From Chloroflexota bacterium (GTDB lineage: Bacteria; Chloroflexota; UBA11872): 64,000 bases of DNA. The stretch covers positions 1 to 64,000 of the forward strand of contig JAPOYR010000002.1 of NCBI GenBank assembly GCA_026706485.1, given 5' to 3'. Made by a program: the position numbers and the translations under genes. The notes under the pieces are model-generated. The model ran no database searches and had not been told where the DNA came from. It saw nothing but the letters and a program-made list of their open reading frames with translations. Positions 16,506 through 64,000 of this stretch are shown here, piece after piece (within the stretch, counting starts at the first letter, position 1; every line of letters starts with the position of its first letter).

Positions 16506-16520
16506 GGAAGACAGGATTCC
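16506..16520 (-). promoter_or_regulatory. GGATTCC-type operator, copy A
   Basis: Plus-strand GGAAGACAGGATTCC, followed by GTAAG. One half-site is perfect (GGATTCC) and the other degenerate. It lies ~60 bp upstream of the HTH pseudogene, as in the other copies. Confidence 0.5.
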
Positions 16521-24802: not shown

Positions 24803-25258
24803 TTATTTCGAGGGAAATTCCGCCTGTGCAAGTGCCAGAAACTCGCGAGTCACGGCCTCAACCGCGGGTCGCCGATAGGCGGCCCATAGATGCTGGCGGC
24901 TCCGAAGTCCCAGGCGCGCCGCAATGGCGGCCATCGGTTGGCCCTCGCAATAGAGCTGCAAAGCCAGCACTTGCCGCGGCGTCAGGATCGCCGATGCCCG
25001 CTCGGTTGCCTGCTGAAGGAGCGTACGGGCCGCATGAATGTCGGCAAAGGCGCTTCGTCGAAAGCGCTGGCGTGCCAGGCGTTGCACGCCCGGCAGTCCG
25101 ACGAGAGCAGAGTCGAGCAACCGATAGCCGTCCGCACGGTGACGCAACGCGTCGTCGACCCACCGGTAATAGGCGGCAAACGACCGCCGGCCGCGCCGCA
25201 GCGTTCGGCGGTGCGCAAGTCCACGCCCAAGAATTGGCATGTGGGCAGCCCCGGTCAT
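24803..25258 (-). CDS. Element-end HTH protein, copy B
   Basis: 151 residues from ATG at 25258 (MTGAAHMPILGRGL), chosen because copy C has a start at the aligned position; the frame is open much further upstream. The N-terminal half is basic and helical (RRGRRSFAAYYRWVDDALRH, GVQRLARQRF). The C-terminal half is a sigma-region-4/LuxR-like HTH: ILTPRQVLALQLYCEGQPMA, then AARLGLRSRQHLWAAYRRPA. Transcribed toward the att core, ~110 bp away. Likely a DNA-binding regulator of the element, e.g. of excision; no named family is recognised. Confidence 0.7.
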   Translation of the reverse strand: MTGAAHMPILGRGLAHRRTLRRGRRSFAAYYRWVDDALRHRADGYRLLDSALVGLPGVQRLARQRFRRSAFADIHAARTLLQQATERASAILTPRQVLALQLYCEGQPMAAIAARLGLRSRQHLWAAYRRPAVEAVTREFLALAQAEFPSK

Positions 25259-25317
25259 CTGCAGGCTCCGATCGAACGAGTAGTACGGCTCTAGGATGCA
25301 GACGCAGAGTCCTGATG

Positions 25318-25332
25318 GGTATGCAGGATTCC
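25318..25332 (-). promoter_or_regulatory. GGATTCC-type operator, copy B
   Basis: Plus-strand GGTATGCAGGATTCC, 60 bp upstream of the copy B HTH gene. The GGATTCC half-site is conserved and the other half is weak. Confidence 0.55.
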
Positions 25333-25335
25333 ATA

Positions 25336-27424: not shown

Positions 27425-27450
27425 GGCAGGTGCTTTCGGGGCCGCGCGGC

Positions 27451-27663
27451 CGCCGGAGCGCTGCGGAGACGGCGGGGGTGCCGCTGTTACGCGAGATCCC
27501 ACTGGACCCAGGCATTCGAATGGGCGGCGACCAGGGCCGACCGCCCGCCGCAGCGGGCGCCGACGACGCACTCAGGTCGGCGTATTTCGACGCCGCGAAG
27601 CGCATGACCGCCCAACTGAGCCCGCTCACCTCCGCCAAGCCGGAGCCGTTGCCGGTGCTCTAG
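27451..27663 (+). pseudogene. C-terminal fragment of a Mrp/ApbC P-loop ATPase
   Basis: The plus-strand frame reads AETAGVPLLREIPLDPGIRM then GGDQGRPPAAAGADD and ends at TAG. This matches the closing part of Mrp/NBP35 iron-sulphur carrier proteins (GVPLLGEIPLDP...GGDxGxP). The Walker motifs and the rest of the gene are missing; the fragment begins where the Fic gene starts on the other strand. Likely a piece of chromosome trapped during element formation. Confidence 0.6.
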
Positions 27664-32880: not shown

Positions 32881-33097
32881 CGGGCCGCTTCCTCAGTCCG
32901 AGACCCAACTTGCGCGTCTCGGATGTTCGCCACTCCGGGTCACTGGCACCGACTTGAGTGCGCAAGCCCCCGACCATTGGCTTAGAAGAACCGCGGGAAA
33001 ATCTGCCGCGTTTGAGCGACGCCAAACCTGTTACGGCATCGAGGCCGATCTACAGGCCGTTGCCCCTTTCTTGGAGCAATGGCACGGAAATTCTACG

Positions 33098-33550
33098 TTA
33101 ATTCGAGGGAAAGTCCGCCTGCGCCAGTGCCAGGAACTCCCGAGTCACGGCCTCAACCGCAGGTCGCCGATAAGCGGCCCACAGATGCTGGCGACTACGC
33201 AGGCCCAGACGCGCCGCAATGGCAACCATTGGCTCCCCCTCGCAATAGAGCTTCAGTGCCAGGACCTGTCGTGGCGTCAGCACCACCGAGGCTCGCTCGG
33301 TGGCCTGCTGGAGAAGCGCTCGCGCCGCATGCACATCGGCGAAGGCCCTCCGTCCAAAACGCTGGCGTGCCAGGCGTCTTACTCCGGGAAGGCCTATCAG
33401 GGCTGAATCCAGCAAGCGATAGCCGTCCGCGCGATGGCGCAGAGCGTCGTCGTCCCACCGATAGTACGTCGCAAACGATCGCCGGCCGCGGCGTGCCGCA
33501 TGGTGGGCATGCGGTCGTCGTGGGATTGGTATCGCAGCAGTCTCCGGCAT
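33098..33550 (-). CDS. Element-end HTH protein, copy C
   Basis: 150 residues from ATG at 33550 (MPETAAIPIPRRPHAHHA), aligned with the start of copy B; an upstream ATG at 33598 is possible. Same layout: RRGRRSFATYYRWDDDALRH, LLDSALIGLPGVRRLARQRF, then the HTH VVLTPRQVLALKLYCEGEPM and AARLGLRSRQHLWAAYRRPA. About 80% identical to copy B by eye, with most variation in the first 25 residues. Intact, read toward the att core at the left end of element C, which also has the intact integrase. Confidence 0.72.
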   Translation of the reverse strand: MPETAAIPIPRRPHAHHAARRGRRSFATYYRWDDDALRHRADGYRLLDSALIGLPGVRRLARQRFGRRAFADVHAARALLQQATERASVVLTPRQVLALKLYCEGEPMVAIAARLGLRSRQHLWAAYRRPAVEAVTREFLALAQADFPSN

Positions 33551-33609
33551 CCGCCGACTCCGGTGAACGAGCACTGTGGCATCAGGATGCCGACGCAAAG
33601 CTGGCGGTG

Positions 33610-33624
33610 AGAATGCAGGATTCC
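33610..33624 (-). promoter_or_regulatory. GGATTCC-type operator, copy C
   Basis: Plus-strand AGAATGCAGGATTCC, 60 bp upstream of the copy C HTH start, the same spacing as in copy B. Confidence 0.55.
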
Positions 33625-33659
33625 GTAAGCGCCGGACGGCGTCCCCGAGATTGAGAGGT

Positions 33660-38558: not shown

Positions 38559-39305
38559 CTATCGTGAGCGGCGCAGGCTTAGTCCATGTCCGTCATAATC
38601 ATAGGCATCTCCGTTACGCTCCGCCACAGTCCCGAGTGCTTCGGTTATGACTTCGTCCAACGCAAGTTCCGACTCAGGTTCACCGGCCCTCGCAAACGAC
38701 ATTTCCGATCTCTCTGCACTTGCCGATACCAACCCCAAATAGAATTTCTCATATTGCTCGTCCCGACCTGCCGGATCATCACGGCCAGTAAACAGTCTGA
38801 GGCCTCGATGCGCATTCTCGATTGTCGAGGCACGCCGCTCGGTGCCGTCAAATTGAGCACCGTTGTCGAATACGAATATGCCAACCAAAGTCGCGTAGGG
38901 GAATCTTCGATGGAGAGTGACTGCCTCAAATAACATATCTCCGCGCCTATTGGTGAAGTTCTTTTGATAATTCCTCGACCGCCTGTCAGCGAAATTGATA
39001 CACTTCACCGAAAATGCAATGAGCAATCCAGATTCTTCGGTTGCCCAAGTGACATCTACTTTCTTGTCACCAATCCCCCCGGCCATTCTGCGTTCCGAAC
39101 CAGAAGTACCCCGATTTCCCGGATACGGCCGAGCCTCACCTAAACCACGATTCCTGAGCGATTCGGCGATGACTTGAGCAAGCGCTGCTGACATCAACTC
39201 CGAATAGCCCTTCTTAGCGCTCGCACCAGCCTCCAGAGGCGGCTTGGGGTCAAGCTTACAGAGTGCATCGATCAGCCGCTCATGATCACTAGGTATCATG
39301 GTCAT
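38559..39305 (-). CDS. Putative type II restriction endonuclease
   Basis: 248 residues. GDKKVDVTWATEESGLLIAF leads into SVKCINFADRRSRNYQKNF, a PD-(D/E)xK-like site with Asp in KVDV and SxK instead of ExK. TNRRGDMLFEAVTLHRRFPY is a further conserved-looking block. The start overlaps the stop of the upstream methyltransferase, a typical restriction-modification order. No named enzyme is recognised. The non-canonical Ser at the acidic position leaves activity uncertain. Confidence 0.7.
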   Translation of the reverse strand: MTMIPSDHERLIDALCKLDPKPPLEAGASAKKGYSELMSAALAQVIAESLRNRGLGEARPYPGNRGTSGSERRMAGGIGDKKVDVTWATEESGLLIAFSVKCINFADRRSRNYQKNFTNRRGDMLFEAVTLHRRFPYATLVGIFVFDNGAQFDGTERRASTIENAHRGLRLFTGRDDPAGRDEQYEKFYLGLVSASAERSEMSFARAGEPESELALDEVITEALGTVAERNGDAYDYDGHGLSLRRSR

Positions 39306-40927
39306 GTTCGCGAAAACCTACGCGATCGGAGCGCGTCCCTTGCCCTCTTTACCTGAGAAAGCCGGGCAGTTGTAGCACTACGCCTTCGATTAAGAACTAC
39401 TTCATCGACCCGAACGCGAACTGCGTCGTGCATGCCGTCTCGAAGCAATTCCTCCGCCGATGCTTCCATTGACACCAGTTTATCTGCCAAAGATACGACG
39501 GCTTTAGGCGACGGTACAGGCAAGTCGGCAGCTTCACGTGGCTCCATCTTAAGTACACCGCCACCATATGAACGACCGATAATCTCTGCACCCAAGGCGG
39601 TTACCGAGTTAAGCATCGCAAGTGGAAGCAGCTCACGTGCAAATCGAGTCTCGGCGTTTAGACACAGACCGTGTACCGAGTTGAGGGCATGAACTTCCGC
39701 TGTGTTTGATACAAGACGTGGCGAGTCGTGGCTCATATAGCTAATGAAGATGTCGGCTATCTTTGGGAGCGGAATTCTCCACCACGGACGCCGCACCTTG
39801 CACTTGTAGGCTTCATGGACACACTGTTGTTCACCAACAGCTACGTATGCACGAGCTGCAGACGAGGTAAGATTGTCATCCGGATAGAACAAGAGAGTTT
39901 GAGCTTTTCGTTCAGCAAGGTGGCGGTGCACTTCAGAGGAATATTTTAGGCCGTGAAGAGCATGAGAACCCGGCGGCAAGACATCAATGAGATCGTTGGA
40001 GTCCAGGGCCAATTTCTCTGCGCGGTCGTGCGACATTCGAAAATAGGAGTTGTTTCCGCTAACTGCTCCCAGCTGGATTGTTCCCCAGGTTGAAAGAGGC
40101 ACAAAGTCTTCCGAGTCCAGCAACGTGCGGTAAACGTCGAGTGACTCCGGCGGAACTAGCGCAGGCGTCCACTTTATCTCTTCCGGGGCAGGCGTCCACG
40201 CTCTCCGTCTAACTCTGCCGTTCTGAAGACCATCGATATCTTCAACCTGCATTAGATCAATTGAGGTAGTAGAGCCAGTTCCTTGAGCAAGTAACAAGAC
40301 AATCTCGCTGAGCACTCCTGGAAATACTCGCTTTTCGAATGTGACCAAGGTCACTCGGGCAAACCTTCCCATCAGATACTTGCGGACGGGCGCCGCATAC
40401 CTGACGTGTAGTAATTCGGCAGGAAGGATGAGTGCCATTCTGCCGTCGTGCCTGAGGAAGCGAGAAGCGTGAATGACGAATGCCGCCCAGGAACTGGCGA
40501 GGCCATTGAGTCTGACTCCGGCTGCCAGCGCCGCTCGTTGCGCTTTCGCCCGGGCAGCGCCCGCAAATTCCTGATAGCGAACAAATGGAGGATTCCCGAC
40601 CACTGCGTCTGCGGTCGGCGCGGGAGCGACATCAAAAAAGTCAGCCGTCTCGATGCGCACGCGCGCACCCAAGGCGGCAACAGCCGAACGAGCGGTGTCG
40701 CTAGCCGCCGGATCAAGCTCGAATCCGATGATGGACTCGCCCTGCGGGGTATCAGGAAGGCTCAGGGCCTGTATTCGCTTCCACGCAGCCTTCAGGAATA
40801 CGCCCTCTCCGCAGGAAGGCTCAATAACCTCGTCGCACGGCGTGCAAATCGCCCAGGCAGCCAAGTATTCGGCAATCTGCGGCGGCGTGTAGAACGCACC
40901 GCGAGCCTTCCGAAACGAGCCAGCGAC
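39302..40927 (-). CDS. N6-adenine DNA methyltransferase (TaqI-like), 5' end damaged
   Basis: The SAM motif is VIEPSCGEGVFLKA, followed by IGFELDPAA and catalytic NPPFVRYQEF, a gamma-class enzyme with a C-terminal target domain (~520 residues). Coding similarity extends upstream of the first usable start (TTG 40864): ARGAFYTPPQIAEYLAAW, including the conserved GAFYTP. That stretch follows a TAG near 40928 with no start codon between, so the N-terminus is truncated or frameshifted. The downstream nuclease overlaps its end. If the enzyme is inactive, the nuclease must be too. Confidence 0.8.
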   Translation of the reverse strand, partial: VAGSFRKARGAFYTPPQIAEYLAAWAICTPCDEVIEPSCGEGVFLKAAWKRIQALSLPDTPQGESIIGFELDPAASDTARSAVAALGARVRIETADFFDVAPAPTADAVVGNPPFVRYQEFAGAARAKAQRAALAAGVRLNGLASSWAAFVIHASRFLRHDGRMALILPAELLHVRYAAPVRKYLMGRFARVTLVTFEKRVFPGVLSEIVLLLAQGTGSTTSIDLMQVEDIDGLQNGRVRRRAWTPAPEEIKWTPALVPPESLDVYRTLLDSEDFVPLSTWGTIQLGAVSGNNSYFRMSHDRAEKLALDSNDLIDVLPPGSHALHGLKYSSEVHRHLAERKAQTLLFYPDDNLTSSAARAYVAVGEQQCVHEAYKCKVRRPWWRIPLPKIADIFISYMSHDSPRLVSNTAEVHALNSVHGLCLNAETRFARELLPLAMLNSVTALGAEIIGRSYGGGVLKMEPREAADLPVPSPKAVVSLADKLVSMEASAEELLRDGMHDAVRVRVDEVVLNRRRSATTARLSQVKRARDALRSRRFSRT

Positions 40928-45663: not shown

Positions 45664-45708
45664 CGGCACCCCCGGCGGGATTCGAACCCACGACCGTCGG
45701 CTTAGAAG
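45664..45708 (-). other. tRNA-Arg(UCU) 3' half: att junction
   Basis: The minus strand reads CTTCTAA (loop, anticodon TCT), GCCGA, a variable segment, GTGGG-TTCGAAT-CCCGC (T arm), acceptor strand CGGGGGT and discriminator G. The D arm and 5' acceptor are missing; to the right lies the end of the T4SS operon, though CCGGC just beyond the loop would still pair with the anticodon stem. This is the expected product of site-specific integration inside the anticodon loop. Core TTAGAAG at 45702-45708. Confidence 0.85.
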
Positions 45709-45726: not shown

Positions 45727-46428
45727 CTAGGCTCCAAGGATTCGCGTCGGATCGACGTGAGCTCCGTTCTGCCTAACTTCGAAGTGCAGATGCGGACCCG
45801 TCGACGCGCCCGAGCTTCCCAGCCCGCCAATGGCATCTCCTCGGTGAACCGCCATTCGAATGGTCATTCCGTAGCCACTCAACGTGCCCGGCTGGAGATG
45901 CGCATAGAGCGTCTGCCAGCCACTGCCATGGTCCAGAACGATGAAATGTCCGTAACCGTCAGGATCCCAGCCGATCGTGGTGATCACGCCATCAGCGGCC
46001 GCCCGCACCGGCGTGCCGAGCTGAGCCGCGATATCGATGCCCCAGTGAGGACACATGGCGGCCGTGCAGCCTCCGTAATGCGTGGTCATGCGCCCAACCA
46101 CCGGCCACAGCCAAGTCCGGGGAGGTTCCTCGCCGACGATCAATGAGTCGGGTTCGACCTGTTGACGCCAACCCGGCGAGCCGTGGTCGATCCCTGCCAC
46201 GCCTGTGCCGAAGGGCCCAAACACGGCGGCCAGGAAAAGAGACGCGGCCAGTAACACGGTCATCGCAGGCAGCACACCTATCACCGCAGCTGCCCCGAGT
46301 GCACACGCGGCCGCAGGATGCACGTCGCGCGATTCCTCCCGCGTGCGCGCGACCAAGATCTGCGCCGCCATTCGTAGCCCGAAACCGACTAGGCGCCGGC
46401 CTACAGCACCGAGCCAAGGCGCAGGCAT
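45727..46428 (-). CDS. M23 family peptidase of the conjugation operon
   Basis: 233 residues. Hydrophobic region near 40-75 (AAAVIGVLPAMTVLLAASLF), then an M23 domain: HWGIDIAAQLGTPVRAAADG, then GPHLHFEVRQNG, which give the zinc ligands H-x3-D and HLH. It cuts peptidoglycan so the transfer channel can pass the wall. Last gene of the leftward T4SS operon. Its stop is only 18 bp from the att core at 45702-45708, so the operon appears to end at the element boundary. Confidence 0.87.
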   Translation of the reverse strand: MPAPWLGAVGRRLVGFGLRMAAQILVARTREESRDVHPAAACALGAAAVIGVLPAMTVLLAASLFLAAVFGPFGTGVAGIDHGSPGWRQQVEPDSLIVGEEPPRTWLWPVVGRMTTHYGGCTAAMCPHWGIDIAAQLGTPVRAAADGVITTIGWDPDGYGHFIVLDHGSGWQTLYAHLQPGTLSGYGMTIRMAVHRGDAIGGLGSSGASTGPHLHFEVRQNGAHVDPTRILGA

Positions 46429-46451
46429 CGCGACGTGCTAGTCCTGCATCA

Positions 46452-47387
46452 TCAGCGACCGGGTGGTCGTCGCGGCGCCGTGCCGGCTGCACGGACAGTT
46501 CGCGCGTCGCGCACCAGATTTCGGACGGCCACGTATTGATGGACCCCACGGCCCCACACGGTCTGCGGCGTGATGGCCGGCAATTGCGACATTCCGGCCA
46601 TGAGCCATCGCGGGAATTGGAGCACCACCCCGAGACTCACGATCAGCATGGCGATCGAGAGCAAGCTCGGCGGCTGCGCCGCGATGATTCCGAATACCAC
46701 CACCAATCCAAAGACGATGGCCGCCTTTTCGAAGACCACGTGCGCGACTCGCTTCACCCAGGCATCCATCAGCCCGCGGGCAAATGGCAGCAGACTGAGC
46801 ACCATGACCAGTGGCGCCGCCACCACCAATACCCAGATCCAGATCATTCGCAGGGCGAACTTCATGGCCAGCAGCACAACTTCGAGCAAGAGGATCAAGT
46901 AGAGCAGCGTGCGGAACAGGGTCGTCCAGAGCCCGCCGACGACGCCTCCGGTTCCCGCGGTGCCCCAGCCCCAGCGCTCGAAAAGCTCAATTGGGCTATC
47001 GCGGTCGATCACATCGCCCCCAAGGGTCACGAACGCCTGCACCAACAGATTGTTGAGCTGCAACATGGCTTCGACCATGGCGTAGCTCGCCAGGGCAAAC
47101 CCCACAGCCACCACCGTCTGCCCGGCGAAGGCTCGCAGATCGACCGGCGCTCCCATGAACACCTTGTAGAGCGCGAAACCGACGAAGATCACCACTACCA
47201 GGGAGATCAACGGTGTCTGCGCATTCAACGCCAGATCGCGCGTGCGATCCCACATGGCGCGAAGCGCCTGGTTGGCTTTGGAAGGGACGTAGAAGTCCTT
47301 GAGGGCCGTACCGCCCGGCACGGCGGCAAACGCGCGGTCCATCGCACCGCCCGGGTCCGGCTCGATACTGTCCGGAACGGTCAGCAT
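46452..47387 (-). CDS. VirB6/TrbL-like polytopic membrane protein
   Basis: 311 residues with about six hydrophobic helices: PLISLVVVIFVGFALYKVFM, VAVGFALASYAMVEAML, LLYLILLLEVVLLAMKFAL, IWIWVLVVAAPLVMVLSLL, AIVFGLVVVFGIIAA, SIAMLIVSLGVVLQF. Ends in an Arg-rich tail. Size, topology and place between VirB4 and the M23 peptidase fit the inner-membrane channel protein of a gram-positive-type T4SS. Sequence-level identification is weak, as usual for this family. Confidence 0.72.
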   Translation of the reverse strand: MLTVPDSIEPDPGGAMDRAFAAVPGGTALKDFYVPSKANQALRAMWDRTRDLALNAQTPLISLVVVIFVGFALYKVFMGAPVDLRAFAGQTVVAVGFALASYAMVEAMLQLNNLLVQAFVTLGGDVIDRDSPIELFERWGWGTAGTGGVVGGLWTTLFRTLLYLILLLEVVLLAMKFALRMIWIWVLVVAAPLVMVLSLLPFARGLMDAWVKRVAHVVFEKAAIVFGLVVVFGIIAAQPPSLLSIAMLIVSLGVVLQFPRWLMAGMSQLPAITPQTVWGRGVHQYVAVRNLVRDARTVRAAGTAPRRPPGR

Positions 47388-47399
47388 CCAGCGCCAGGA

Positions 47400-47714
47400 C
47401 TAGGCCAAGGGGGCATGCAGAGCCTGGGTCAGCGAGGTGGTGGCACCCAGACTCGCCGTCGCGGCGACGGATCCGGGATCGCGCCACACCGGTGGAAACA
47501 GTGAGGTTAGCGTCACTCGGAGCGTCTCACCCAGGCGGTCTGCCAAGGGCTCGGTTAGCTCATCGGCGATATCGTCCGCCGAGTCGGATGAGACCGTATC
47601 GCCAGGCGTAGTCGTATCGGCGGTCGCAGGCGTGTCGGCCAATACCGGAGCCGGCAAGCAACAGACGAGCACCGTCGCCAGACCGAGCACGGCCGCGACG
47701 AGCCACCGGCACAT
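47400..47714 (-). CDS. Small secreted T4SS-associated protein
   Basis: 104 residues. Signal peptide MCRWLVAAVLGLATVLVCCL ending PAPVLADT, then a Thr/Asp-rich low-complexity segment and an amphipathic region LTEPLADRLGETLRVTLTSL. 9 bp from VirB4 and 13 bp from VirB6 on the same strand. No known family; probably an extracytoplasmic component of the transfer apparatus. Confidence 0.6.
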   Translation of the reverse strand: MCRWLVAAVLGLATVLVCCLPAPVLADTPATADTTTPGDTVSSDSADDIADELTEPLADRLGETLRVTLTSLFPPVWRDPGSVAATASLGATTSLTQALHAPLA

Positions 47715-47722
47715 CGCGGCCG

Positions 47723-50260
47723 CTAGGCGCCGGGCTTGGGCGCGACACCGGCGCGACGGCGCGCGCCCACTGCATCCACCCTAAACGCCGGTGTCTCCAA
47801 CGCCACCCGCTCGCCGGCGCCAACGAGCGCCAGCCCTTGACCGCGACGCGCCTGCGCGAGGATGGCGAGCTCTTCGTTGCTCAGGGCAAAGGCCTCGCGC
47901 AACGCCCGCTCGTGCGTCCGATGTTGGCGGAATAACAGAGTCGCGGCGCAGTTCGCGAGGATCGCGCGCGCCTTCGGCTCCTCGACGAGGTCGGAGACAT
48001 CCTGCGACACCAGCAGCAGCATGGTCTGCAACGCCCGCGCCGTCTTGGCCAACTCAAGAAGGAAGTCGGCGCCCTGCTCGCAGCCGAGCAGCGTCCACGC
48101 CTCGTCCACCACGATCACGCGCCGCCGGTGCTCGCGATCCATCCAGTTTCGGAGATGGAGCAGGATCACGTAGTAGACCAGCGGCAGAATCTCGGCCTGG
48201 TCGGCCCGCTGGTCGCGCAGGGCAAACACCGTGCAGTCGTTGCTCAGATCGACGTTGGTTGGACGATTGAAGAGCTCGGCCAACTGCCCGGTCGTAAAGC
48301 GCTTCAGCCGCTCCAGCAGATCTCGCGCGGCTTGGCCGTACATGGCGTCGTGGCCATATCGATCCTCGATGAGCCTCACGAAGTCGGATGTGGTGGGTGG
48401 CGACCGGCCGTAAGTCGACGGATCGGCCGCCTCAATGTGCCGTCTTCGGAAGGTGGGCTCGATGGCGTTGTCGATGATGGTCCGCTGCTGCTCGCTGAGA
48501 CCCCCGAGGGCCAGCCGCCAGAATCCGCGCAGGCCGCTCGCCACCCGTGCGAAGCCGCGGGCGTCGCTCACGCCGGCCAGGTCCCAGACGTTGATGGCCT
48601 GCGACGACGCCATCGCCGGCTTGAGCATCTGTCCGTTGCAGACTCGGGCGAGGGCGCCGTATTCATTCTTGGGGTCGAGGACGGTGAGGCTGGCCCCTGA
48701 GAGCCACAACCCAAAGGCGATCTGCTTGGCGCAGTGGCTCTTGCCGCCGCCGCTCTGGCCCAACACCGCGAGGTGGGGATTCTCGTGGCGTTCGGCAAAG
48801 GGATCGATGATGACCGGGGCATGGCCGTGGCCGCCACCCACCGTCGTGCCCAGGAAGATGCCACCGGGCTCCGCGAGACCCGGCGCATGAAATGGAACTG
48901 CGGCCGCCAGCGGGCCGGTGGTCAGTCCACGCCAGCGGCCGAGGCGATCCTCTGCCAACGGCAGCAAGCTGTGCAGGCCGTCCTGCTGGTAGCCGACCAC
49001 GCGAGAGGCCGACATTCCGTGTCCCGCAAGCTCCGCCTCGACATCCTGGGTGGCCTGCTGAAGGGATTCCGCACTGTCCGCAGCAACTCCGATCACCAGC
49101 GAGGTGCGAACGTAGCGCTCGCGGGCCCGGAATGCCTCGTGGACGTCTTCGAGATCTTCCAGCCGCTGACGCGAGGCGCGGGCGGCCGCGGGGTTCAGTT
49201 CTTCGCCAGCTGCCACCTCGCTGAGCAGCTCGCGCTCGGTGCTGGACAGACGACGGCGAATCGTGCGGTCGTCGACCGGCGAGACGAAGAGCGCCAGGTC
49301 GAGGTCGTGCTTCAGCGTGGCGAACCAGCGCAGCCAGCCGGCGTCGACTTCCCGCGGGTAGCCACGCAGCGCCAGGATGCGCAGGTGGCGGGCCTTCGGC
49401 CCTGGACCCTGGACAACCAGATGGTCCGGTTGGCACGCGATCCACTCCGGAAACGGATCGGCAAGGTCAAAGCCGAAACGCGTGACCGGGAGCGCCCCGC
49501 TCCGGTATTTGATTCGGCCACCGGAGCCGTTCGCTCTCATCGCATCCTGCACTTGCTGCACGGGCGAAGATTCCGATCGAAATAGGCCCTCGACCAACTC
49601 AATGAGGTCGAGCCCCTCGAGGCGCCGACTGCTCATGCCGGCTCTTGCTAGGCCCTCGCAGACCAACCGCACCCGCGCCTCAAGCGCGCCGGGATTCACA
49701 GGTCCGTGGTCGGAGGACGGTCGCCTCGACCACCATCGACGTGAGCGTGACGGCTGGCCGTGCGCCAGCAATACAAAGCAGCGCACCTGCCGCATGTGCC
49801 AGCGACCGTGGGCAGCACGTACGGCCTCGGCATACGTCGTCGGCCGTGGGGCGTCACCATCGACCTCGGCGGTCGCCACTCCCAGCAGCCGGTGCCGCAG
49901 GTCGAGCTTGTCATCCCACGTCGCCGACCAATGGCGGACTGCATCGGTCAAGTGAGTGGCCGGTTCGAACGCGCGATTGCGCAGTACGATCTGGACCGGA
50001 CACGGGAGACTTGTCAGCAGTTGCGCCAGCCCGGACACGGCCGATGCCATTCGCGCTTCGGCCAGCAGATCGAGATTGAGTGGCCGGACTTCGAGCGCGG
50101 CGACCAGCGCGCCGTCGGACCGCAGAATGCCCTGCTGCCCGATCCCGCGCACTCCCAGCGGTAGCGGTGGATGGTCGTACGGGCCGTCATCAAGGTCTTG
50201 CAGACGTCGGAGCTGGGGCTCTCCGCTCGACGGCTCCCTCGACCGGCTATCCGTCGACAC
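47723..50260 (-). CDS. VirB4-like T4SS ATPase
   Basis: 845 residues with GTG 50260 as start, overlapping the PrgI stop by 14 bases; a frame to 50473 lies wholly within PrgI and is rejected. The C-terminal motor has Walker A AVLGQSGGGKSHCAK and Walker B RRVIVVDEAWTLLG, then LLLVSQDVSDLVEE. The N-terminal ~400 residues are the VirB4 membrane-docking domain. It powers channel assembly. With PrgI, pilin and VirB6-like proteins it indicates a conjugative or mobilising element; no VirD4 coupling ATPase or relaxase is encoded in the window. Confidence 0.9.
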   Translation of the reverse strand: MSTDSRSREPSSGEPQLRRLQDLDDGPYDHPPLPLGVRGIGQQGILRSDGALVAALEVRPLNLDLLAEARMASAVSGLAQLLTSLPCPVQIVLRNRAFEPATHLTDAVRHWSATWDDKLDLRHRLLGVATAEVDGDAPRPTTYAEAVRAAHGRWHMRQVRCFVLLAHGQPSRSRRWWSRRPSSDHGPVNPGALEARVRLVCEGLARAGMSSRRLEGLDLIELVEGLFRSESSPVQQVQDAMRANGSGGRIKYRSGALPVTRFGFDLADPFPEWIACQPDHLVVQGPGPKARHLRILALRGYPREVDAGWLRWFATLKHDLDLALFVSPVDDRTIRRRLSSTERELLSEVAAGEELNPAAARASRQRLEDLEDVHEAFRARERYVRTSLVIGVAADSAESLQQATQDVEAELAGHGMSASRVVGYQQDGLHSLLPLAEDRLGRWRGLTTGPLAAAVPFHAPGLAEPGGIFLGTTVGGGHGHAPVIIDPFAERHENPHLAVLGQSGGGKSHCAKQIAFGLWLSGASLTVLDPKNEYGALARVCNGQMLKPAMASSQAINVWDLAGVSDARGFARVASGLRGFWRLALGGLSEQQRTIIDNAIEPTFRRRHIEAADPSTYGRSPPTTSDFVRLIEDRYGHDAMYGQAARDLLERLKRFTTGQLAELFNRPTNVDLSNDCTVFALRDQRADQAEILPLVYYVILLHLRNWMDREHRRRVIVVDEAWTLLGCEQGADFLLELAKTARALQTMLLLVSQDVSDLVEEPKARAILANCAATLLFRQHRTHERALREAFALSNEELAILAQARRGQGLALVGAGERVALETPAFRVDAVGARRRAGVAPKPGA

Positions 50261-50687
50261 GGAATCCCCACCTGTGCCGGATGACGGTGGCAGACGCTTG
50301 ATCCGGCAACTCCAGGAGATAGAGCGGATCGGGAATTCGCAGACGCCGTGGTGCCCGCAGCGGTGGTCGGCGTCGGGCGACGAGACGCGGACGCAGCCAG
50401 AACCGGCCCAGCGCCACGAGGTGTCGGTCGAGCGGTTGATCATCGACCCGCACCCGCATGAGCGACCACCCAAGCAAGACCGGAAGCGCGAGGGCGAACC
50501 CCACCAGCGGGCCGAGACCGAGCCACGGCACCAGGACCGCGATCAGCCCGAGCTCGAACCCACCCAGAGCCACCAGCCAGAGCAGCTCGCGGTTGGTCAG
50601 GCGAAAGCCACCCAACGGCCAGCGGGCCGGCACATGTTCCAGATCCTCCGGGATGACGAAGCGCAGGGGCGAGGCCGGCGACGTCAC
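50247..50687 (-). CDS. PrgI family (VirB3-like) protein
   Basis: 146 residues starting MTSPASPLRFVIPEDLEHVP, the usual IPEDL opening of PrgI proteins. Two hydrophobic helices (LLWLVALGGFELGLIAVLV, LGPLVGFALALPVLLGW), then DDQPLDRHLVALGRFWLRPR. It overlaps the upstream pilin gene by four bases and VirB4 downstream. Anchors VirB4 at the membrane. Confidence 0.82.
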   Translation of the reverse strand: MTSPASPLRFVIPEDLEHVPARWPLGGFRLTNRELLWLVALGGFELGLIAVLVPWLGLGPLVGFALALPVLLGWSLMRVRVDDQPLDRHLVALGRFWLRPRLVARRRPPLRAPRRLRIPDPLYLLELPDQASATVIRHRWGFRVDG

Positions 50688-51034
50688 GTCCGGCCACCCA
50701 TCGTGTCGACCAGAAACTCGACCGCGGCCTGCAGCAGCCCGAAGTTGAAGGCCATCACCAACCCGTAGACCACCAGCGCCTGCATGGCGAAGCGGCGGGC
50801 CTCGAGCTGCGCCTCGACGCTATTAGAGGTCCAGGCGGCAATCGCCTTCCAGCCAATCGCCGCAGCCACCGCCAGGCTGGCAATCGCGGCCAGAAAGCCC
50901 TTGAGGGACTCCACCGCAAATGTGATTGGGTCGGTCGTCTGCGCAAACGCAGGCACGGCCGGCAATAGCATCAAGGCCAACAGGGTGATCGCCAGGCATG
51001 CGCGTCGACCTATGCTCACGGCTGCACCTCGCAC
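50684..51034 (-). CDS. TrbC/VirB2-like pilin subunit
   Basis: 116 residues. Signal peptide (RACLAITLLALMLLPAVPAF-AQ), then two hydrophobic helices (FLAAIASLAVAAAIGWKAI and ALVVYGLVMAFNFGLLQA) separated by a charged turn, the standard conjugative pilin arrangement. Overlaps the ATPase gene upstream by 19 bases and PrgI downstream by four. Confidence 0.72.
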   Translation of the reverse strand: MRGAAVSIGRRACLAITLLALMLLPAVPAFAQTTDPITFAVESLKGFLAAIASLAVAAAIGWKAIAAWTSNSVEAQLEARRFAMQALVVYGLVMAFNFGLLQAAVEFLVDTMGGRT

Positions 51035-52383
51035 GCCGCCTCGGGCACGGAGGCAAAACTCCGCACGACGCGGCGCAGCACGGCACGCAGTCCGCCGGGG
51101 CCGCTTCCAGGATGCGGGGGCCTCGACTGCATGAGCCCCAGGCGCTCGGCCACCTCGTCGATGGCCGAGCGAAAGGCCTCGAGCTCGTCGATCATCCAGC
51201 TGTGCGGGAGCTCACCGCGACTCTGGGCCACCCCCACGTAGGGATGTGCGTCCGGGATCACCCCGATGACTGGGATCTCGAATCCCACGCCCTCGGCAAC
51301 CAGCTTGGCGATTTCTGAGACGCGGCGGCGGTCGCGGGGTCGAACGCGGTTCAGCAATAGGAATAGCCGGTCCTCAGGCATGAATTCCGGCCCAATGTCG
51401 CGGCGGACCATCGTGATATCGCGAATGGCATTGACGATGTCGGCCTGTGCCGGAGTGACCACGTAGAGAATGCGATCCGCCCGCGCCAGCGGCTGGAACC
51501 GCCAGTGGCCGTATTCGGTGGGCAGGGTGACCACCACGGCTCCATAGGGAAAGTCACGCGCCGTGACCAGCAGCTCGCGGATCAGGTTCGGCTCTTCGCG
51601 CTCGAAGCGCGCGTTCCACTGCGCGGCTAGGTGGTCGTCGGCCAGGCCGACCATCACATGAAAGTTGCGGAATCTCTGTAGACCCGCCTGAAAACCGTCA
51701 CGATTGGGCTGGCGCAGAAACGCCGCGACGCCGGGAGTCGCATCGACCCCGCAGTAGGCCGCTAAGTCATCCTTGGGATCGCTCCCCATCAGTAGGACCG
51801 GCACGTTGCGCTCGGCGATCGCCCAGGCCAGGTTGGAGGCGAGGGTGTCCTTGCCAATCCCTCCCTTGCGCGCCGTGAGGCAGACGATCGATCGCCCCGC
51901 CGGCGGCACGGCCAATCGCTCCGCCAATTGCTCGGCGGCGGCCGTCTCATGCTGTCGTGCCCGCTGCTGCGCGGCCCGTGTGGCGCAACCGAGCGTCCAG
52001 GCCCGTCCGATCACCTCGGCGGCGTCGACGGGCCGATAGTGCACGGCATCGACGGCTGGCAAGCGCTCTAGGTCGTCGTTCATGCCGTCGTGCCAAACCT
52101 CGATGAGCACTATTGCGCGCGTGCCCTGTGCTTGAAGATCGGTCAAGAACACCAGCAAGCCGTTGTCGGCGTCCTCGGGGAATAGCTCGGTCCCGACGAT
52201 GACAACGTCGGGCTGGCTCGCCGCTACGTGGGCCGCGGCGTCGGCGCCATCCGTGGAGAGGCCGGCCAGCTCGAGTTGGCCGGCCGGCCGCTGGGCCATG
52301 GCGGCACGGACCTCCTGAATCTCGGCGGCGCGCAGCAGACACAGGTGTACCCGGATCGGCAGGCTGGTCCCCTGATCGCTCAC
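51016..52383 (-). CDS. CpaE-like ParA/MinD ATPase heading the T4SS operon
   Basis: 455 residues. The N-terminal ~125 residues resemble a receiver-like domain (VHLCLLRAAEIQEVRAAM, PDVVIVGTEL) without a clear phospho-Asp site. The rest is a MinD/ParA fold with deviant Walker A CLTARKGGIGKDTLASN, and SDPKDDLAAYCG. CpaE-type ATPases localise pilus machines; heading the T4SS genes, this one may place or time the transfer apparatus. First gene of the operon; the best palindrome of the set lies 124 bp upstream. Confidence 0.78.
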   Translation of the reverse strand: MSDQGTSLPIRVHLCLLRAAEIQEVRAAMAQRPAGQLELAGLSTDGADAAAHVAASQPDVVIVGTELFPEDADNGLLVFLTDLQAQGTRAIVLIEVWHDGMNDDLERLPAVDAVHYRPVDAAEVIGRAWTLGCATRAAQQRARQHETAAAEQLAERLAVPPAGRSIVCLTARKGGIGKDTLASNLAWAIAERNVPVLLMGSDPKDDLAAYCGVDATPGVAAFLRQPNRDGFQAGLQRFRNFHVMVGLADDHLAAQWNARFEREEPNLIRELLVTARDFPYGAVVVTLPTEYGHWRFQPLARADRILYVVTPAQADIVNAIRDITMVRRDIGPEFMPEDRLFLLLNRVRPRDRRRVSEIAKLVAEGVGFEIPVIGVIPDAHPYVGVAQSRGELPHSWMIDELEAFRSAIDEVAERLGLMQSRPPHPGSGPGGLRAVLRRVVRSFASVPEAACEVQP

Positions 52384-52506
52384 GACCGGGTCGGGCTCCT
52401 TCGCTCACGCAGGGCGGCGGCGTCGGGGAGGCGCGACGCCGCCGCCGGCGTGCGGGTGCGCGCCAATTGCGCGCTGAGATCAATCTAGAAGCGCGCGAAG
52501 GGTTCT

Positions 52507-52521
52507 GGAATCCAGGATTCC
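52507..52521 (-). promoter_or_regulatory. Perfect GGAATCC-A-GGATTCC palindrome upstream of the T4SS operon
   Basis: GGAATCCAGGATTCC, a 15-bp perfect dyad about a central A, 124 bp before the CpaE-like gene. The other members of the family keep one perfect half. Likely operator of the element's regulator. Confidence 0.7.
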
Positions 52522-52724
52522 GTAATCGTCGCGGTCAGGGGGGACTACCGCGGATCGAGTGGTCGACACGTTCGTCGTGCGAGCGGATCGGCCTAAGCAT
52601 CCATGGATCACGGCGCACGGGACCGTGCCGCGGCGTTGCTCGCCACACCTGTTGCCTGCACCCCGACCGATCCAACCGTCCCGTGTACCTCCCAACAGAG
52701 TCGGAGTCTGAGTCGAGCACCGAT

Positions 52725-53462
52725 CTAGCGAACTAGTCCGCGCCGTGCGGCGATCAGACAGGCCTCGGCTCGATTCCGGGTGCCGAGCTTCCGGTAGATC
52801 ACCGTGAGAGCCTTGTCCACGGTATTCACGGCGATATGCAATTGGTCCGCGATCTCACGCGACGTCAGGCCACGGGCACCGGCGGATATGATTTCGGTCT
52901 GGCGCGGCGTGAGCTCTTCCAGGACCATTTCAGGTTGCTCACCGGCAGGCGCGCACGCGTTGAAGAAAGCATCGCGCACGGACTGCCCGATGGTGACGTG
53001 CCCAGCGGCGGCGCCGCCCACAACCTCGTGCACTTCCTGCGATGGAGCCGTGGCGGCCAGCAGGCCGTCGGGCCTCGTCAGCAGCGTGTCCCACAGGCGC
53101 TGCTTGCTGTGTAGCGCCACAACTACTCGGGTGGCCGGGTAGCGGGTCCGGATCGAAATCGCCCGTTGCAATAGCCGGGTACGGGTGGCCTGCGCCTCGG
53201 ACACTGTCACCACGACGTCAACGCGGCGACGTGCGCACGCGACGACCGCCGCATCGGCACTGTGCACAATCCCGATCACCTCAATCGACGGTTGATCCTC
53301 CAACTGGCATCGAACCCTGTTGGCCGTGTCTGGAACCGTAGCCAGCACCAGCACACGCACGCGGGGTGGCCGATCACCAGAGGCACCAGCCACTGTTGCT
53401 AGAGAGACCGCCGGCGGTCGTCGGGTGGGACCCGCCCTCCAGCCTCGTGCGTGTGTTGACAT
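52725..53462 (-). CDS. LuxR-type transcriptional regulator
   Basis: 245 residues from ATG at 53462 (GTG 53477 possible). The N-terminal part resembles a receiver domain (VRVLVLATVPDTANRVRCQL) but has no clear phosphorylation Asp. The C-terminal HTH is typical: EELTPRQTEIISAGARGLTS, then REIADQLHIAVNTVDKALTV. Divergent from the XRE gene across ~118 bp that hold a 9-bp inverted repeat. Probably controls transfer genes of the element. Confidence 0.85.
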   Translation of the reverse strand: MSTHARGWRAGPTRRPPAVSLATVAGASGDRPPRVRVLVLATVPDTANRVRCQLEDQPSIEVIGIVHSADAAVVACARRRVDVVVTVSEAQATRTRLLQRAISIRTRYPATRVVVALHSKQRLWDTLLTRPDGLLAATAPSQEVHEVVGGAAAGHVTIGQSVRDAFFNACAPAGEQPEMVLEELTPRQTEIISAGARGLTSREIADQLHIAVNTVDKALTVIYRKLGTRNRAEACLIAARRGLVR

Positions 53463-53525
53463 CGCAGACCAGATCACTATGGTGGTGACCGATTATCGTA
53501 GTGACGGCCGGGAGGCCCTGTCAAT

Positions 53526-53552
53526 ACTATTGTGCCGATAGTTCACAATAGT
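53526..53552. promoter_or_regulatory. Inverted repeat operator between LuxR and XRE genes
   Basis: ACTATTGTG (53526-53534), 9-nt spacer, CACAATAGT (53544-53552): a perfect 9-bp dyad. It covers the GTG at 53532, which argues that the XRE gene starts later, at ATG 53580. Likely bound by the XRE repressor. Confidence 0.65.
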
Positions 53553-53579
53553 GATTCACAGCTCGGGGACCTGGAAGAC

Positions 53580-53942
53580 ATGTCCCTGCGCATGCGCTAT
53601 CTGTTTGCCACGGTTCGCAAGTCCGATAACACCGCCTACACCGTCGAGGAGGTCGCGCACGGAACCGGCGTCTCCCTGACCTACCTTCGCAACATGCTGG
53701 CCGGACGCCAGGACAATCCCAGCCGAAAGGTCATCGCTGCAATTGCCCGCTTCTTTCGCGTCTCGCCCGCCTATTTCTTTGACATGGATGGCGAGAGCAA
53801 CGCGGAGCGTGAGGCACCGGCATCCGAGATCGAGGTGGCCCTTCGATCGGCCGATCGCCTGGGGCCGGAAGGGCGGCAAATCCTGCTTGACATGATTCGA
53901 CTCGCCCAGCGGATTGTGGGGCAACGCAGTCCGGACTCGTGA
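53580..53942 (+). CDS. XRE family repressor partner of ImmA/IrrE
   Basis: 120 residues from ATG at 53580 (MSLRMRYLFATVRKSD), with TGGAAGAC upstream. HTH: YTVEEVAHGTGVSLTYLRNM, then RQDNPSRKVIAAIARFFRVS and AYFFDMD. The last ~50 residues form a helix that probably is the site of cleavage by the protease. The next gene overlaps its stop, the usual arrangement for ICE repressor-protease modules. Confidence 0.82.
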   Translation: MSLRMRYLFATVRKSDNTAYTVEEVAHGTGVSLTYLRNMLAGRQDNPSRKVIAAIARFFRVSPAYFFDMDGESNAEREAPASEIEVALRSADRLGPEGRQILLDMIRLAQRIVGQRSPDS

Positions 53943-54436
53943 ACGCGCTGCTCGAGGCGCGGACGCTGTTGTGCAAGCTGGGACTCAGTGGCTGCCACTT
54001 CAATCGCGATCTCTTCCTGGAGCGGCTGGAGTCGCGTATTGAGATCAAGGTCGTCGCAGTGCCGGACTCTCGATTGCCGGCCGGTGGAATCTCCGGCGCG
54101 CGAATCACAACCGACGGATCCCACGTGGTGTTCTATCCCGCCGGCGCCTCCCACCGACTGCAACTGGCAGTCATCTGCCACGAGTGCGCTCACCTGGTGC
54201 TCGACCACACCAGCCGATCCGTCAATGATGTTCTCGCCGGGACCAACACATCGTCGCCCAACGACGAACTCGCCGCCGAAGCGTTAGGGGCCGCCCTCGT
54301 GCACTTCGCCGAACGGCCGGAGCGGCTACGGTCGCTCGTAGAGGGCGTGGGTCTGCAGGGAGAAAGCCAAGGGCACCGGGAATTACGCGCGAGTCTTCGA
54401 GACTTCTTTAGACCACACGCACCGCGTAATTCTTAG
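53939..54436 (+). CDS. ImmA/IrrE family metallo-endopeptidase
   Basis: 165 residues, GTG start at 53939 overlapping the XRE stop. The zinc motif is LAVICHECAHLVLDH (HExxH), with a downstream Glu in NDELAAEALGAAL. In known integrative elements such a protease cleaves the adjoining XRE repressor upon DNA damage and releases excision and transfer genes. Normal length, intact. Confidence 0.88.
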   Translation: MNALLEARTLLCKLGLSGCHFNRDLFLERLESRIEIKVVAVPDSRLPAGGISGARITTDGSHVVFYPAGASHRLQLAVICHECAHLVLDHTSRSVNDVLAGTNTSSPNDELAAEALGAALVHFAERPERLRSLVEGVGLQGESQGHRELRASLRDFFRPHAPRNS

Positions 54437-54761: not shown

Positions 54762-56078
54762 CTAACCCGTTTCATTCTCGACGAGCACGCGCCGAAGCGC
54801 CGCTGTTTCTTCCCAGCCTGGGTATCGCCGCTCGACCAACGCCAGCGCCGGCCTTGAACCGCCTAGCACTCCGCTACCTCGATGCCACGATTCCGCGACC
54901 GCGACGTAGCTGTCGACCACCTTCAGCACCCGCGCAACTCGTGTTCTCGGCATCGGCAGCTCCACCTCACCCAACGCGTGGATCACGTCGGCTGGCACCC
55001 ACACCGTCCGTGCGACGGCGGAATGCACCCCATGGTTCTGTCCGCCGGCCGAATCCCTGCTCCCGTCCAGCGTGTCGTCAGGCAGTGGACAATTCACAGC
55101 ACGCAGCACCAAGTCCGTGTGCATCAGCGCGGCAGACAGGCGCAAACAGGCGATTTCGTCGTAGCTGCACTGCATCGTCCGGGCCACGTGGTCAACGAGC
55201 GCGATCAGTTCAGCGCGCCATCCCAAATCGCGACCACGAACGAGATCGTCCTTGGTCTGGAGCGCAAAGGCGATGGCAAAGTCCCGCGCCACCGTAGCGT
55301 CGATTCGGGCCGCCAATGTCATCAGGATGCGTGGCGGCGCGAGAGCCAGCCAAGACAGCACGCCATATCCGGATAGGAACTCAGAGAGTGTTCCCTCGGC
55401 TGCCTCAGGGCTCAGACCAAGCCACTTCGCCTGAACGCTAACGAAGAGCAGGCCCTTCATTCCCGCGTATGCCAGAGCGGCCACCGCCGCCGCATGGAGG
55501 AATCGCAAGTTCATCAGCTTCGACAGGGGCAGTCCGACTCGATAGCGGGACCTGCCAACTTCGAGCAGGCTTCCCGCGATGACAGCCATACAGACCAGGT
55601 GCAGCCCCATGCCTAGCCAGATACTCCAGGTGGAAGTCTGGCCGAGCTCCACGACCGAACCATGACCGGGCAGCCACCAAACCAAGAGTGCTGCGGCTAG
55701 GGCCGAGACTAGAAAGATCGGACGGTGGCGTTCGCGTATTCCGAACGTGGTGGTAACCAGCGCCAGAACCAGGAGCACCGCCACATTGCACAGATTCTTG
55801 ACCAATTGACGGTGATCGACATCTGCGCCCACTTGCAGGAAGAGGGGCCAGAGGACTTCGATCACTGCGGCGCCCAACCAAGCACAGAAGCCAACCAGAA
55901 CCAGCAATTGAGCCGCTGTCGGCCGCCCACCGCGAATCCGGCCGACCACGGTCACCATCCCGTATGCGGCACAGGCCATCTGCACCACCTGCCAAAGACT
56001 TGACGACGGCACGCTCGAACTCACCTTCAGATCGGGCGCCTCGCTTGCCAGAACCGCGGTCGCCTTGAAGTCGACCAC
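54762..56078 (-). CDS. Polytopic membrane protein with a degenerate HD-GYP-like tail
   Basis: 438 residues. About seven or eight membrane helices in the first ~280 residues (LLVLVGFCAWLGAAVIEVLW, VAVLLVLALVTTTFGI, IFLVSALAAALLVWWLPG, WLGMGLHLVCMAVIAG). The cytoplasmic tail contains ACLRLSAALMHTD and MPRTRVARVLKVVDSYVAVA followed by YPGWEETAALRRVL, the outline of an HD-GYP domain but without HD and GYP residues. A membrane protein after XRE and ImmA/IrrE recalls the MAB_1171c-type arrangement in some actinobacterial elements, though here it is convergent. Function unknown. Confidence 0.6.
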   Translation of the reverse strand: MVDFKATAVLASEAPDLKVSSSVPSSSLWQVVQMACAAYGMVTVVGRIRGGRPTAAQLLVLVGFCAWLGAAVIEVLWPLFLQVGADVDHRQLVKNLCNVAVLLVLALVTTTFGIRERHRPIFLVSALAAALLVWWLPGHGSVVELGQTSTWSIWLGMGLHLVCMAVIAGSLLEVGRSRYRVGLPLSKLMNLRFLHAAAVAALAYAGMKGLLFVSVQAKWLGLSPEAAEGTLSEFLSGYGVLSWLALAPPRILMTLAARIDATVARDFAIAFALQTKDDLVRGRDLGWRAELIALVDHVARTMQCSYDEIACLRLSAALMHTDLVLRAVNCPLPDDTLDGSRDSAGGQNHGVHSAVARTVWVPADVIHALGEVELPMPRTRVARVLKVVDSYVAVAESWHRGSGVLGGSRPALALVERRYPGWEETAALRRVLVENETG

Positions 56079-62086: not shown

Positions 62087-62341
62087 TCATGCGGTCCAAG
62101 TCTCGTCGGGGCGGTGTCTCGGCCCCGGCTGCCCGGCATCGAGCAGCGCGTGCAGGTCTTCGTGCAGCGTATGGCTGGGGATGCGGATCCAGCGACCGAT
62201 GCGGATGTGGCGGATCAACCCGGCATGGCACATGCGGCGGACACGTACCTCATGGAGCTGCCACAGGTCGGCCACCTGCTTCACGGTGAGCAATCGCGGA
62301 CCGTGGTCCGCGGCCGTGGTCCGGCGGCGGGTCGGCGTCAC
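62087..62341 (-). CDS. Excisionase-like MerR/HTH-17 DNA-binding protein
   Basis: 84 residues with GTG 62341 as start; the frame is open to 62698, but the upstream sequence is low-complexity Arg/Ser. Core: LLTVKQVADLWQLHEVRVRR, then MCHAGLIRHIRIGRWIRIPS, the winged HTH-17 fold used by excisionases and torS-like factors. It may be an old excisionase from a previous element. No integrase lies next to it on this strand. Confidence 0.6.
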   Translation of the reverse strand: MTPTRRRTTAADHGPRLLTVKQVADLWQLHEVRVRRMCHAGLIRHIRIGRWIRIPSHTLHEDLHALLDAGQPGPRHRPDETWTA

Positions 62342-62933
62342 GCCGGCCGGGCCCGGTCGCGTCGGCGAACGCCGGCTGCCGTCGCAGCGGTGAAACGCAG
62401 CGCAGCGGGCGCTCGCCGCGGTCCGACCGGGCCGTGTCGATGCGCCGGCTTGCGATGTGGATGCCGTCCGTGCACGGCCCCATGATCCGCGCCGGTGCGA
62501 CATCGGCCACCCCAGGTTTCCGTACATTCTGTGAAGACGGGCGACCCCGCAACCTTGATCGTCTGCGCACCGCAAGGCGGCACACGTTCTGCTGCTTGGG
62601 CGAGACTTGGCACCTCCGTGGTCAGTACAGCTAGCAGAGTGATGCGAGGGTAGCGGCGAGAATTCGTGTCGGGGTGCGCGCGAGCTGGGGCAATTCACGA
62701 ATCGGTCACTGAACGGTCCGTGCCTGGAGGCTCGGTTCTCAGTTTCGAGTTTCAGAACCCAAGTCCAGCACGCTCATCTGGGCTTCTGTCGGCCGCGAGT
62801 CAAGTGTGTGACATAGCCTGGATCTTCCAGCCGAGCGTCGTGCATCTCGACGACCACCTGAACGGGCACCGGTCGGGTCGACACCTAGTCAATCTGTTGC
62901 ACGGCGCTCGCGTCAACGACATCGCAGGACTAC
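62342..62933. other. ~0.6 kb without a recognisable gene
   Basis: No gene with plausible composition; leads up to the xis-int promoter region. Confidence 0.35.
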
Positions 62934-62948
62934 GGAATCCTTGCTTCC
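62934..62948 (+). promoter_or_regulatory. GGAATCC-type operator upstream of xis-int
   Basis: GGAATCCTTGCTTCC, preceded by TAC as in the other copies (TACGGAATCC); 79 bp before the excisionase start. One half-site is perfect, the other has two mismatches. Confidence 0.55.
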
Positions 62949-63026
62949 ATCTTCCCAGCCCACGTCTGAGACTCGAGTGATTCGAGCCACTTGAGTGCTT
63001 GAACGCGTGGACGCAACCAACTATCG

Positions 63027-63317
63027 ATGACTGACCTTGACATGGTTCGGGCCACAGAGCCGGAATCCTCACGCGACCTTCGGCGTGCCATTTCGCCTGA
63101 CCGGGATCGACTTACCGTTGCCCCTCGCGAGGCGGCAACGATGCTCGGTGTGGACGTCAGCTTTGTCTACACTTGGGTTCGGACCGGCGAGTTGCCCCAC
63201 TTCATGGCCGGTCGGGCGATCAAGATCCCAATCGAGGGACTTCGGGAGTTCATCCGGCAGAAGTCCGGTCAAACCAGCCGCCGATCTTTAGCCTCCAGAG
63301 TCAACGAAACGACCTGA
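63027..63317 (+). CDS. xis: Excisionase family DNA-binding protein
   Basis: 96 residues. Helix-turn-helix of the HTH-17 type: RLTVAPREAATMLGVDVSFV, then YTWVRTGELPHFMAGRAIKI and PIEGLREFIRQ. Immediately followed, one base after its stop, by the integrase gene. Such pairs set the direction of recombination. The array's palindrome lies upstream, so it may share regulation with the other elements. Confidence 0.82.
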   Translation: MTDLDMVRATEPESSRDLRRAISPDRDRLTVAPREAATMLGVDVSFVYTWVRTGELPHFMAGRAIKIPIEGLREFIRQKSGQTSRRSLASRVNETT

Positions 63318-63318
63318 A

Positions 63319-64000
63319 ATGCCGACCTTTCGCCGACGCGGCGACCACTGGGAGTGCCGCATCTTCAGCCCGCAACTCAACCGACAGGTGTCGCGCAGCG
63401 CACGCAGCAAGCGCGCCGCGCGCCAGTTGGCCGAAGCTCAGCTTCGCGATCTGGAGACCGGCGCGACCGCTCCAACAGATCCCACCACGGTTGCCGAGTT
63501 CCTCGATCTATGGCTTGACCAGCACGGCACCAATATCTGGACGAACACACGCACCCGCTATGGCTATCTTGCCCGTCTGCACGTCAAGCCTTACCTCGGT
63601 GGGACACGTTTGTCGAAACTTCAGCCGCTAGATCTGGTCCAGCTCTATTCGACGCTCCTGACTAAGGGGAGACGTGACGGGAAACCCGGCGGACTCCATC
63701 CGCGCCATGTGGGACACGTACACCGCATGTTGCACAAGGCGCTGGGGGATGCCGAGGCCTGGGGCCTTGTCGCACGCAACGTTGCTGACGCCGTGAGTCC
63801 GCCGAAGGTCCCGCGGACCCCGGTGCGGCCGCCGAGCCAAGCCGAAGCCCGCGCGGTGCTAGCCCTGGCCAAGGACGCTGGCATCTACGCGGAGATCGCG
63901 ACGGCTGTGGCGACCGGCATGCGGCCAGGCGAACTACTCGCCTTGCGCTGGCGGGACGTCGATCTCGACGCCGGAGTCGCCTGGGTGCGTCAAGCAGTCC
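63319..64000 (+). CDS. int: Site-specific tyrosine recombinase, cut by the window edge
   Basis: ATG 63319; 227 codons are visible with no stop before the window ends. The N-terminus (MPTFRRRGDHWECRIFSPQL, RSKRAARQLAEAQLRDLETG) is an arm-binding domain. The SAM-like core-binding domain follows (TVAEFLDLWLDQHG, VHRMLHKALGDAEAWGLVAR). The catalytic domain begins with the first Arg in ATGMRPGELLALRWRDVDLD. Phage/ICE type of actinobacterial-Chloroflexota style, different from the shorter XerC-like integrase at 44505. Co-transcribed with xis. Confidence 0.92.
   Translation, partial: MPTFRRRGDHWECRIFSPQLNRQVSRSARSKRAARQLAEAQLRDLETGATAPTDPTTVAEFLDLWLDQHGTNIWTNTRTRYGYLARLHVKPYLGGTRLSKLQPLDLVQLYSTLLTKGRRDGKPGGLHPRHVGHVHRMLHKALGDAEAWGLVARNVADAVSPPKVPRTPVRPPSQAEARAVLALAKDAGIYAEIATAVATGMRPGELLALRWRDVDLDAGVAWVRQAV

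Follow-up and report, generated by a model that had tools for sequence, protein, structure and literature searches.

Can a single DNA site place several mobile elements under one regulator? The question is raised by a perfect 15-bp dyad, GGAATCC-A-GGATTCC, at 52507-52521, upstream of a T4SS operon in the window, a 64,000-nucleotide stretch of DNA from a Chloroflexota bacterium that was analysed as a whole. The original prediction held that this palindrome recurs across the mobile elements as a common operator for one regulator. Relatives with two mismatches to the dyad do occur at 16506, 25318, 33610 and 62934, the distances from site to gene are as it gave them (60 bp for HTH copies B and C, 79 bp for xis), and four of the five strong cases are alike, TACGGAATCC being exact at these four with TATGGAATCC instead at 25326. 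Five of the six listed sites thus hold; there is no site at 43529 (TTATTCCAAGGATTCGGAG), which had been claimed as a weak one before the replication-relaxation gene, and a strong minus-strand site at 62524 had been overlooked.

The palindrome itself fared poorly against controls in pattern searches and fetched stretches of the genome. Within the window it matched 7 times at up to 3 mismatches versus 3.3 expected, and 6 of 100 shuffles reached 7. Genome-wide, at up to 2 mismatches, it was found at 34 places and a scrambled palindrome of the same letters at 37, a control that rules out the palindrome as the defining feature; the pattern read backwards gave 2 matches, a misleading control because of its different dinucleotide make-up. 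Perfect copies of the dyad number two (C2:52507, on the window's contig, and C5:18820) versus none for the scrambled palindrome. When the places were aligned, the motif that emerged, CAGGATTCCGTAA as read on the plus strand, was directional; the 3.37-Mb genome has five exact copies of it and four with one mismatch, where a rough estimate for a 13-mer gives about 0.1 exact copies by chance; this asymmetric motif is far above chance. Read in the opposite direction it consists of a nearly invariant upstream half, TACGGAAWCCTG, then a loose downstream half, SATTCC. The predicted sequence is therefore real and shared among the mobile elements, but it does not form a palindrome family. A scan of IMG/VR gave 27 scattered box matches, about chance level by rough estimate, and a literature search for the box sequence found nothing relevant.

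As read from the DNA, the shared feature is a predicted asymmetric promoter element, TACGGAAWCCTG-(SATTCC)-N19-NAnnnT, in which an upstream box is followed at constant spacing by a -10-like hexamer. So that the test would not be circular, exact TACGGAAWCCTG 12-mers were searched for without any -10 condition; some of our position counts were drawn from sites chosen for their -10 and are informative in the box columns only. An A2/T6 hexamer was found at exactly +19 for 38 of the 52 exact 12-mers in nine motif-positive related genomes and at +20 for five, and at +19 for none of the 17 in family relatives lacking the regulon, several of these 17 being repeats of one apparently coding sequence. 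When similar sites were collapsed, 14 of 23 kept the +19 spacing (p about 1e-14, on an assumption of independent sites that is weakened by relatedness), and even so every other offset falls far short. The A2/T6 hexamer at a constant 19 nt is independent confirmation of the motif. Its spacing suggests that the box, about 32-46 bp before the inferred start of transcription, would replace a missing -35, as for an activator beside RNA polymerase.

Table 1. Features of the window, with predicted promoter elements
Feature	Position	Strand	Remarks
att core TTAGAAG by copy A	15895-15901	+	
HTH copy A	16014-16443	-	broken (internal stops)
Predicted box and -10 before HTH copy A	16481-16523	-	-10 CACCCT
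att core TTAGAAG by copy B	24687-24693	+	
HTH copy B	24803-25258	-	
Predicted box and -10 before HTH copy B	25293-25335	-	one mismatch in box; -10 CATCCT
att core TTAGAAG by copy C	32982-32988	+	
HTH copy C	33098-33553	-	about 150 aa; candidate excision factor
Predicted box and -10 before HTH copy C	33584-33627	-	-10 CATCCT; spacing 20
tRNA-Arg(TCT) 3' half	45669-45708	-	att core at 45702; joined to left end of T4SS side
T4SS operon	45727-52383	-	ParA-like 51016-52383; TrbC/VirB2 50684-51034; VirB4 47723-50473; M23 peptidase 45727-46428
Predicted box and -10 of T4SS operon	52482-52524	-	-10 TAGATT; contains the perfect dyad
LuxR/NarL-type regulator	52725-53462	-	245 aa; ATG 53462; candidate activator
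luxR-xre control region	53463-53580		luxR promoter TTGACA-N18-TACGAT; flanking repeats CACTATTGTGA, CACAATAGTA, CATAGTGATC
XRE (HTH_3) regulator	53532-53942	+	ImmR-like by position
M78 (IrrE/ImmA-like) metallopeptidase	53939-54436	+	
xis-like gene	62090-62341	-	84 aa; behind 62524 box
Predicted box and -10 before xis-like gene	62482-62524	-	-10 GATCAT
Predicted box and -10 before xis-int	62931-62973	+	one mismatch in box; -10 GAGACT
xis (HTH_17) and tyrosine integrase	63027-64000	+	xis 63027-63317; integrase from 63319, passing window end to about 64626

The genes behind the box belong to unrelated families: the T4SS operon, VirD4-like coupling-protein genes, Replic_Relax genes (PF13814), xis (HTH_17)-tyrosine integrase pairs, HTH genes of about 150 aa and a family of about 216 aa. 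The window's genome has 13 promoter-type matches, or 14 with that of copy C, and all of these precede such genes except C10:399591, where the next ORF is 297 aa long. Position 43529 was rejected as a Replic_Relax box, the window's own Replic_Relax gene being without one; a gene on contig C10, 93% identical to it, has a true box upstream, and homology to the C10 locus ends before the box position in the window. Some parts have evidently decayed, to judge from this gene and the broken HTH copy A. The xis-int genes at 63 kb overlap tRNA-Arg(TCG). The family of about 216 aa, which has no Pfam match, stands behind a box class of its own with a GATAGG right half at at least eight loci (for example L111:13940-14587).

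Several of these genes lie in what looks like a tandem array. In tRNA-Arg(TCT), which has an intact gene at C13:330255, TTAGAAG forms the anticodon loop; within C2:1-80000 this core occurs only at 15895, 24687, 32982 and 45702, and at the last of these, sequence common to the T4SS contigs of genomes G002 and G005 abuts the tRNA 3' half. It is these four cores and the 45702 junction that give copies A, B and C and the T4SS side their array-like appearance: from 15895 to 45702 run three TTAGAAG-bounded elements of 8.8, 8.3 and 12.7 kb, with an HTH module at each left end. Similar arrays are present in G005, G007, G011 and G012; for the T4SS element, no right end was located. Element B of the array carries a Fic-domain gene (26261-27571) with a 71% identical homologue in a mobile element of G004 (L114), and element C an Eco57I-type methyltransferase gene with its neighbour (38559-40864), likely cargo.

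The fetched loci contain about two dozen copies of the HTH module, a block of about 650 bp from box to TTAGAAG; the copies often follow one another in tandem, separated by unrelated DNA. That homology between copies begins at the box and stops at the att core is what one would expect if the box were a recombinase or excisionase arm site and not a promoter element, a reading we regard as very improbable, since the box, at the same -10 spacing, also precedes T4SS, VirD4-like and Replic_Relax genes, where its flanks are unrelated. Because it is encoded next to att cores or integrases, the HTH protein is a candidate excision factor, and its genes appear to be under the regulon's control. These small proteins could conversely be KorA-like plasmid-type regulators that bind their own and other mobility promoters: each HTH gene is directly behind a box, and structure prediction gives an all-helical protein with an HTH of the region-4/KorA kind, on weak matches (E about 0.7). 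We consider this unlikely, as boxes occur in G004, where no member of the HTH family was found, distant members occur in G010 and G015, where no promoter-type boxes were found, and multicopy, often broken genes by att cores or integrases better suit an excision factor. Separately, the stretch of about 120 bp from HTH stop codon to att core (32981-33115) is non-coding yet strongly conserved and recurs at L120:10221-10355 without an HTH gene; perhaps it holds integrase arm sites.

Across the 19 genomes of the family that were scored, the element has a patchy distribution. Nine (G000, G002, G003, G004, G005, G007, G008, G011 and G012) have 4 to 19 promoter-type matches each, and the other ten are near control level (three in G017, one in G016, none in the rest), a mosaic in keeping with a regulon that is accessory and mobile. 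Eight of the 19, every one motif-positive, yielded VirD4-like genes, and the motif-positive G005 yielded none; a box lies within about 0.6 kb upstream of 11 of the 12 loci, the twelfth being cut by a contig end. None of the 12 is close to a LuxR/T4SS locus: those of the window's genome are on C5, C7 and C10, and that of G012 shares a contig with the LuxR/T4SS locus at about 55 kb. In G003 and G004 we found boxes with VirD4-like, Replic_Relax and integrase genes, and neither a LuxR nor a VirB4 orthologue (at 92-96% MAG completeness, either could have been missed), as expected of satellites without a helper.

Which protein, then, would read the box? Among the HTH, LuxR and XRE proteins, comparative evidence best supports the LuxR-type protein, as the candidate activator. 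Single-copy orthologues of it (53-95% identity) occur in G000, G002, G005, G007, G008, G011 and G012, all motif-positive, and exactly these seven genomes hold a VirB4 orthologue (68-100% identity). In all seven the box separates luxR from the T4SS genes, luxR standing directly upstream of the T4SS promoter, and divergent from luxR stand an adjoining XRE gene and then an M78 gene. Because LuxR, T4SS, XRE and M78 are present as a set, co-occurrence does not distinguish LuxR from the others; the DNA-binding domain of LuxR, like the box, is nearly invariant across two genera. The luxR promoter, a good match to the sigma70 type, and its three flanking repeats are likewise conserved in 7/7 genomes, in a control region that overlaps the annotated start of the XRE ORF. 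This gap carries operator-like repeats different from the box, and XRE is unlikely to read the box directly. Past the M78 gene, a 438-aa ORF (54762-56078) has no Pfam match and has relatives near luxR in G002 and G005.

We placed the start of luxR at ATG 53462, since in the G005 relative the in-frame sequence before this codon is interrupted by a stop. Its product combines a GerE match (E 4.7e-12) with a receiver-like domain, as in NarL/FixJ-type response regulators such as ComA, VraR and ChrA: hits to ChrA and VraR cover both the receiver and DNA-binding parts, and the predicted model has an alternating strand-helix order at residues 35-117, in a model that is poor overall (pLDDT 55) and confident only for residues about 35-120. 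The usual acidic phospho-acceptor positions are not evident in an alignment inspected by eye, so that the amount of LuxR, and not its phosphorylation, may be what controls it. The nearest named record for luxR is a MAG, Chloroflexi bacterium isolate COS3_bin_17 (95% identity), of an isolate series that we take to be sponge-derived, although the record title does not say so. In G019, an order-level relative, a LuxR homologue (35%) adjoins a VirB4 homologue (39%) at L161:3545-9000; it has a changed recognition helix and no convincing box, and the locus is possibly an older form of the same system.

These comparisons suggest that the box is probably the activator box of an accessory promoter class, with the LuxR/NarL-type protein as its most likely activator. 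Against LuxR count the boxes of the incomplete G003 and G004 and a box symmetry that is odd-length, lopsided and not matched to a known LuxR-family site. Boxes that persist without LuxR, and a fixed distance to the -10 that would also suit a sigma factor, are the grounds for supposing that another regulator or an unusual sigma factor encoded elsewhere reads the box and that LuxR serves something else. We give this a modest chance at best: the box GG, about 34 nt from the -10, is too far for a usual -35, and the ten family genomes lacking the elements have essentially no promoter-type boxes, implying that no core genes use the box. The common-operator idea survives in altered form, without its palindrome: a cis element common to several mobile elements, through which a single regulator could time their excision, coupling, replication-relaxation and transfer, is well supported by the rigid layout of the promoter, the unrelated families of the mobility genes behind it, its accessory distribution and its occurrence in two genera.

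Beyond the motif, its spacing, linked gene families, distribution, synteny and the conserved luxR control region, we infer a scheme of LuxR binding and activation under an XRE/protease switch, with an HTH role in excision and actual mobilisation as its outcome. The XRE protein would silence luxR; its inactivation, perhaps by the M78 protease, would release LuxR, which would activate the mating apparatus and would act in trans on elements integrated separately, turning on their genes for the coupling protein, Replic_Relax, xis-int and the HTH protein, so that hitch-hiking elements could move when the conjugative helper does. More tentatively, and with a chance we put slightly short of even, a single conjugation machine in two Chloroflexota genera may be split over separately integrated elements and work in concert solely through the shared activator box: the mating apparatus and master LuxR would be on one element, the VirD4-like, Replic_Relax and integrase genes on others, and excision genes on each.

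Helper activators that switch on xis/int of unrelated islands are known from SetR/SetCD of SXT/R391 ICEs and AcaCD of IncA/C, whose mobilizable genomic islands stay quiet without a helper (PMC4542580; PMC5704250). If our reading is true, helper-controlled satellite mobilisation, well known from these gammaproteobacterial systems, also occurs in uncultured Chloroflexota, where another activator and another repressor govern it. With its 12 conserved bases and fixed -10 distance, the element is also sharp enough to find unknown mobile elements by sequence and to tell which genes of unannotated islands belong to mobility.

The likeness to SetCD/AcaCD that we propose here is one of arrangement, a repressor over a master activator whose boxes also precede xis/int of phylogenetically unrelated islands. 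The same box does stand before helper transfer genes and before xis/int of unrelated elements, and G003 and G004, both incomplete, hold islands without a helper. The proteins differ: SetCD/AcaCD is an FlhCD-like complex, whereas the candidate activator here is a single GerE protein outside that family, and the self-cleaving CI-like repressor on the SetR side has its putative counterpart in XRE plus an M78 protease. The host also differs, as does the placing of coupling protein genes on other elements than the mating apparatus. For the repressor side, the closer likeness is to ImmR/ImmA of ICEBs1, where an XRE gene followed by an M78 gene is divergent from the genes thought to be silenced, with repeats in the gap (PMC8960796); another report describes an ImmR-like case (PMC10233336). 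Unlike ImmR/ImmA in ICEBs1, the pair here faces luxR and, by analogy, would act on the mobility genes through it.
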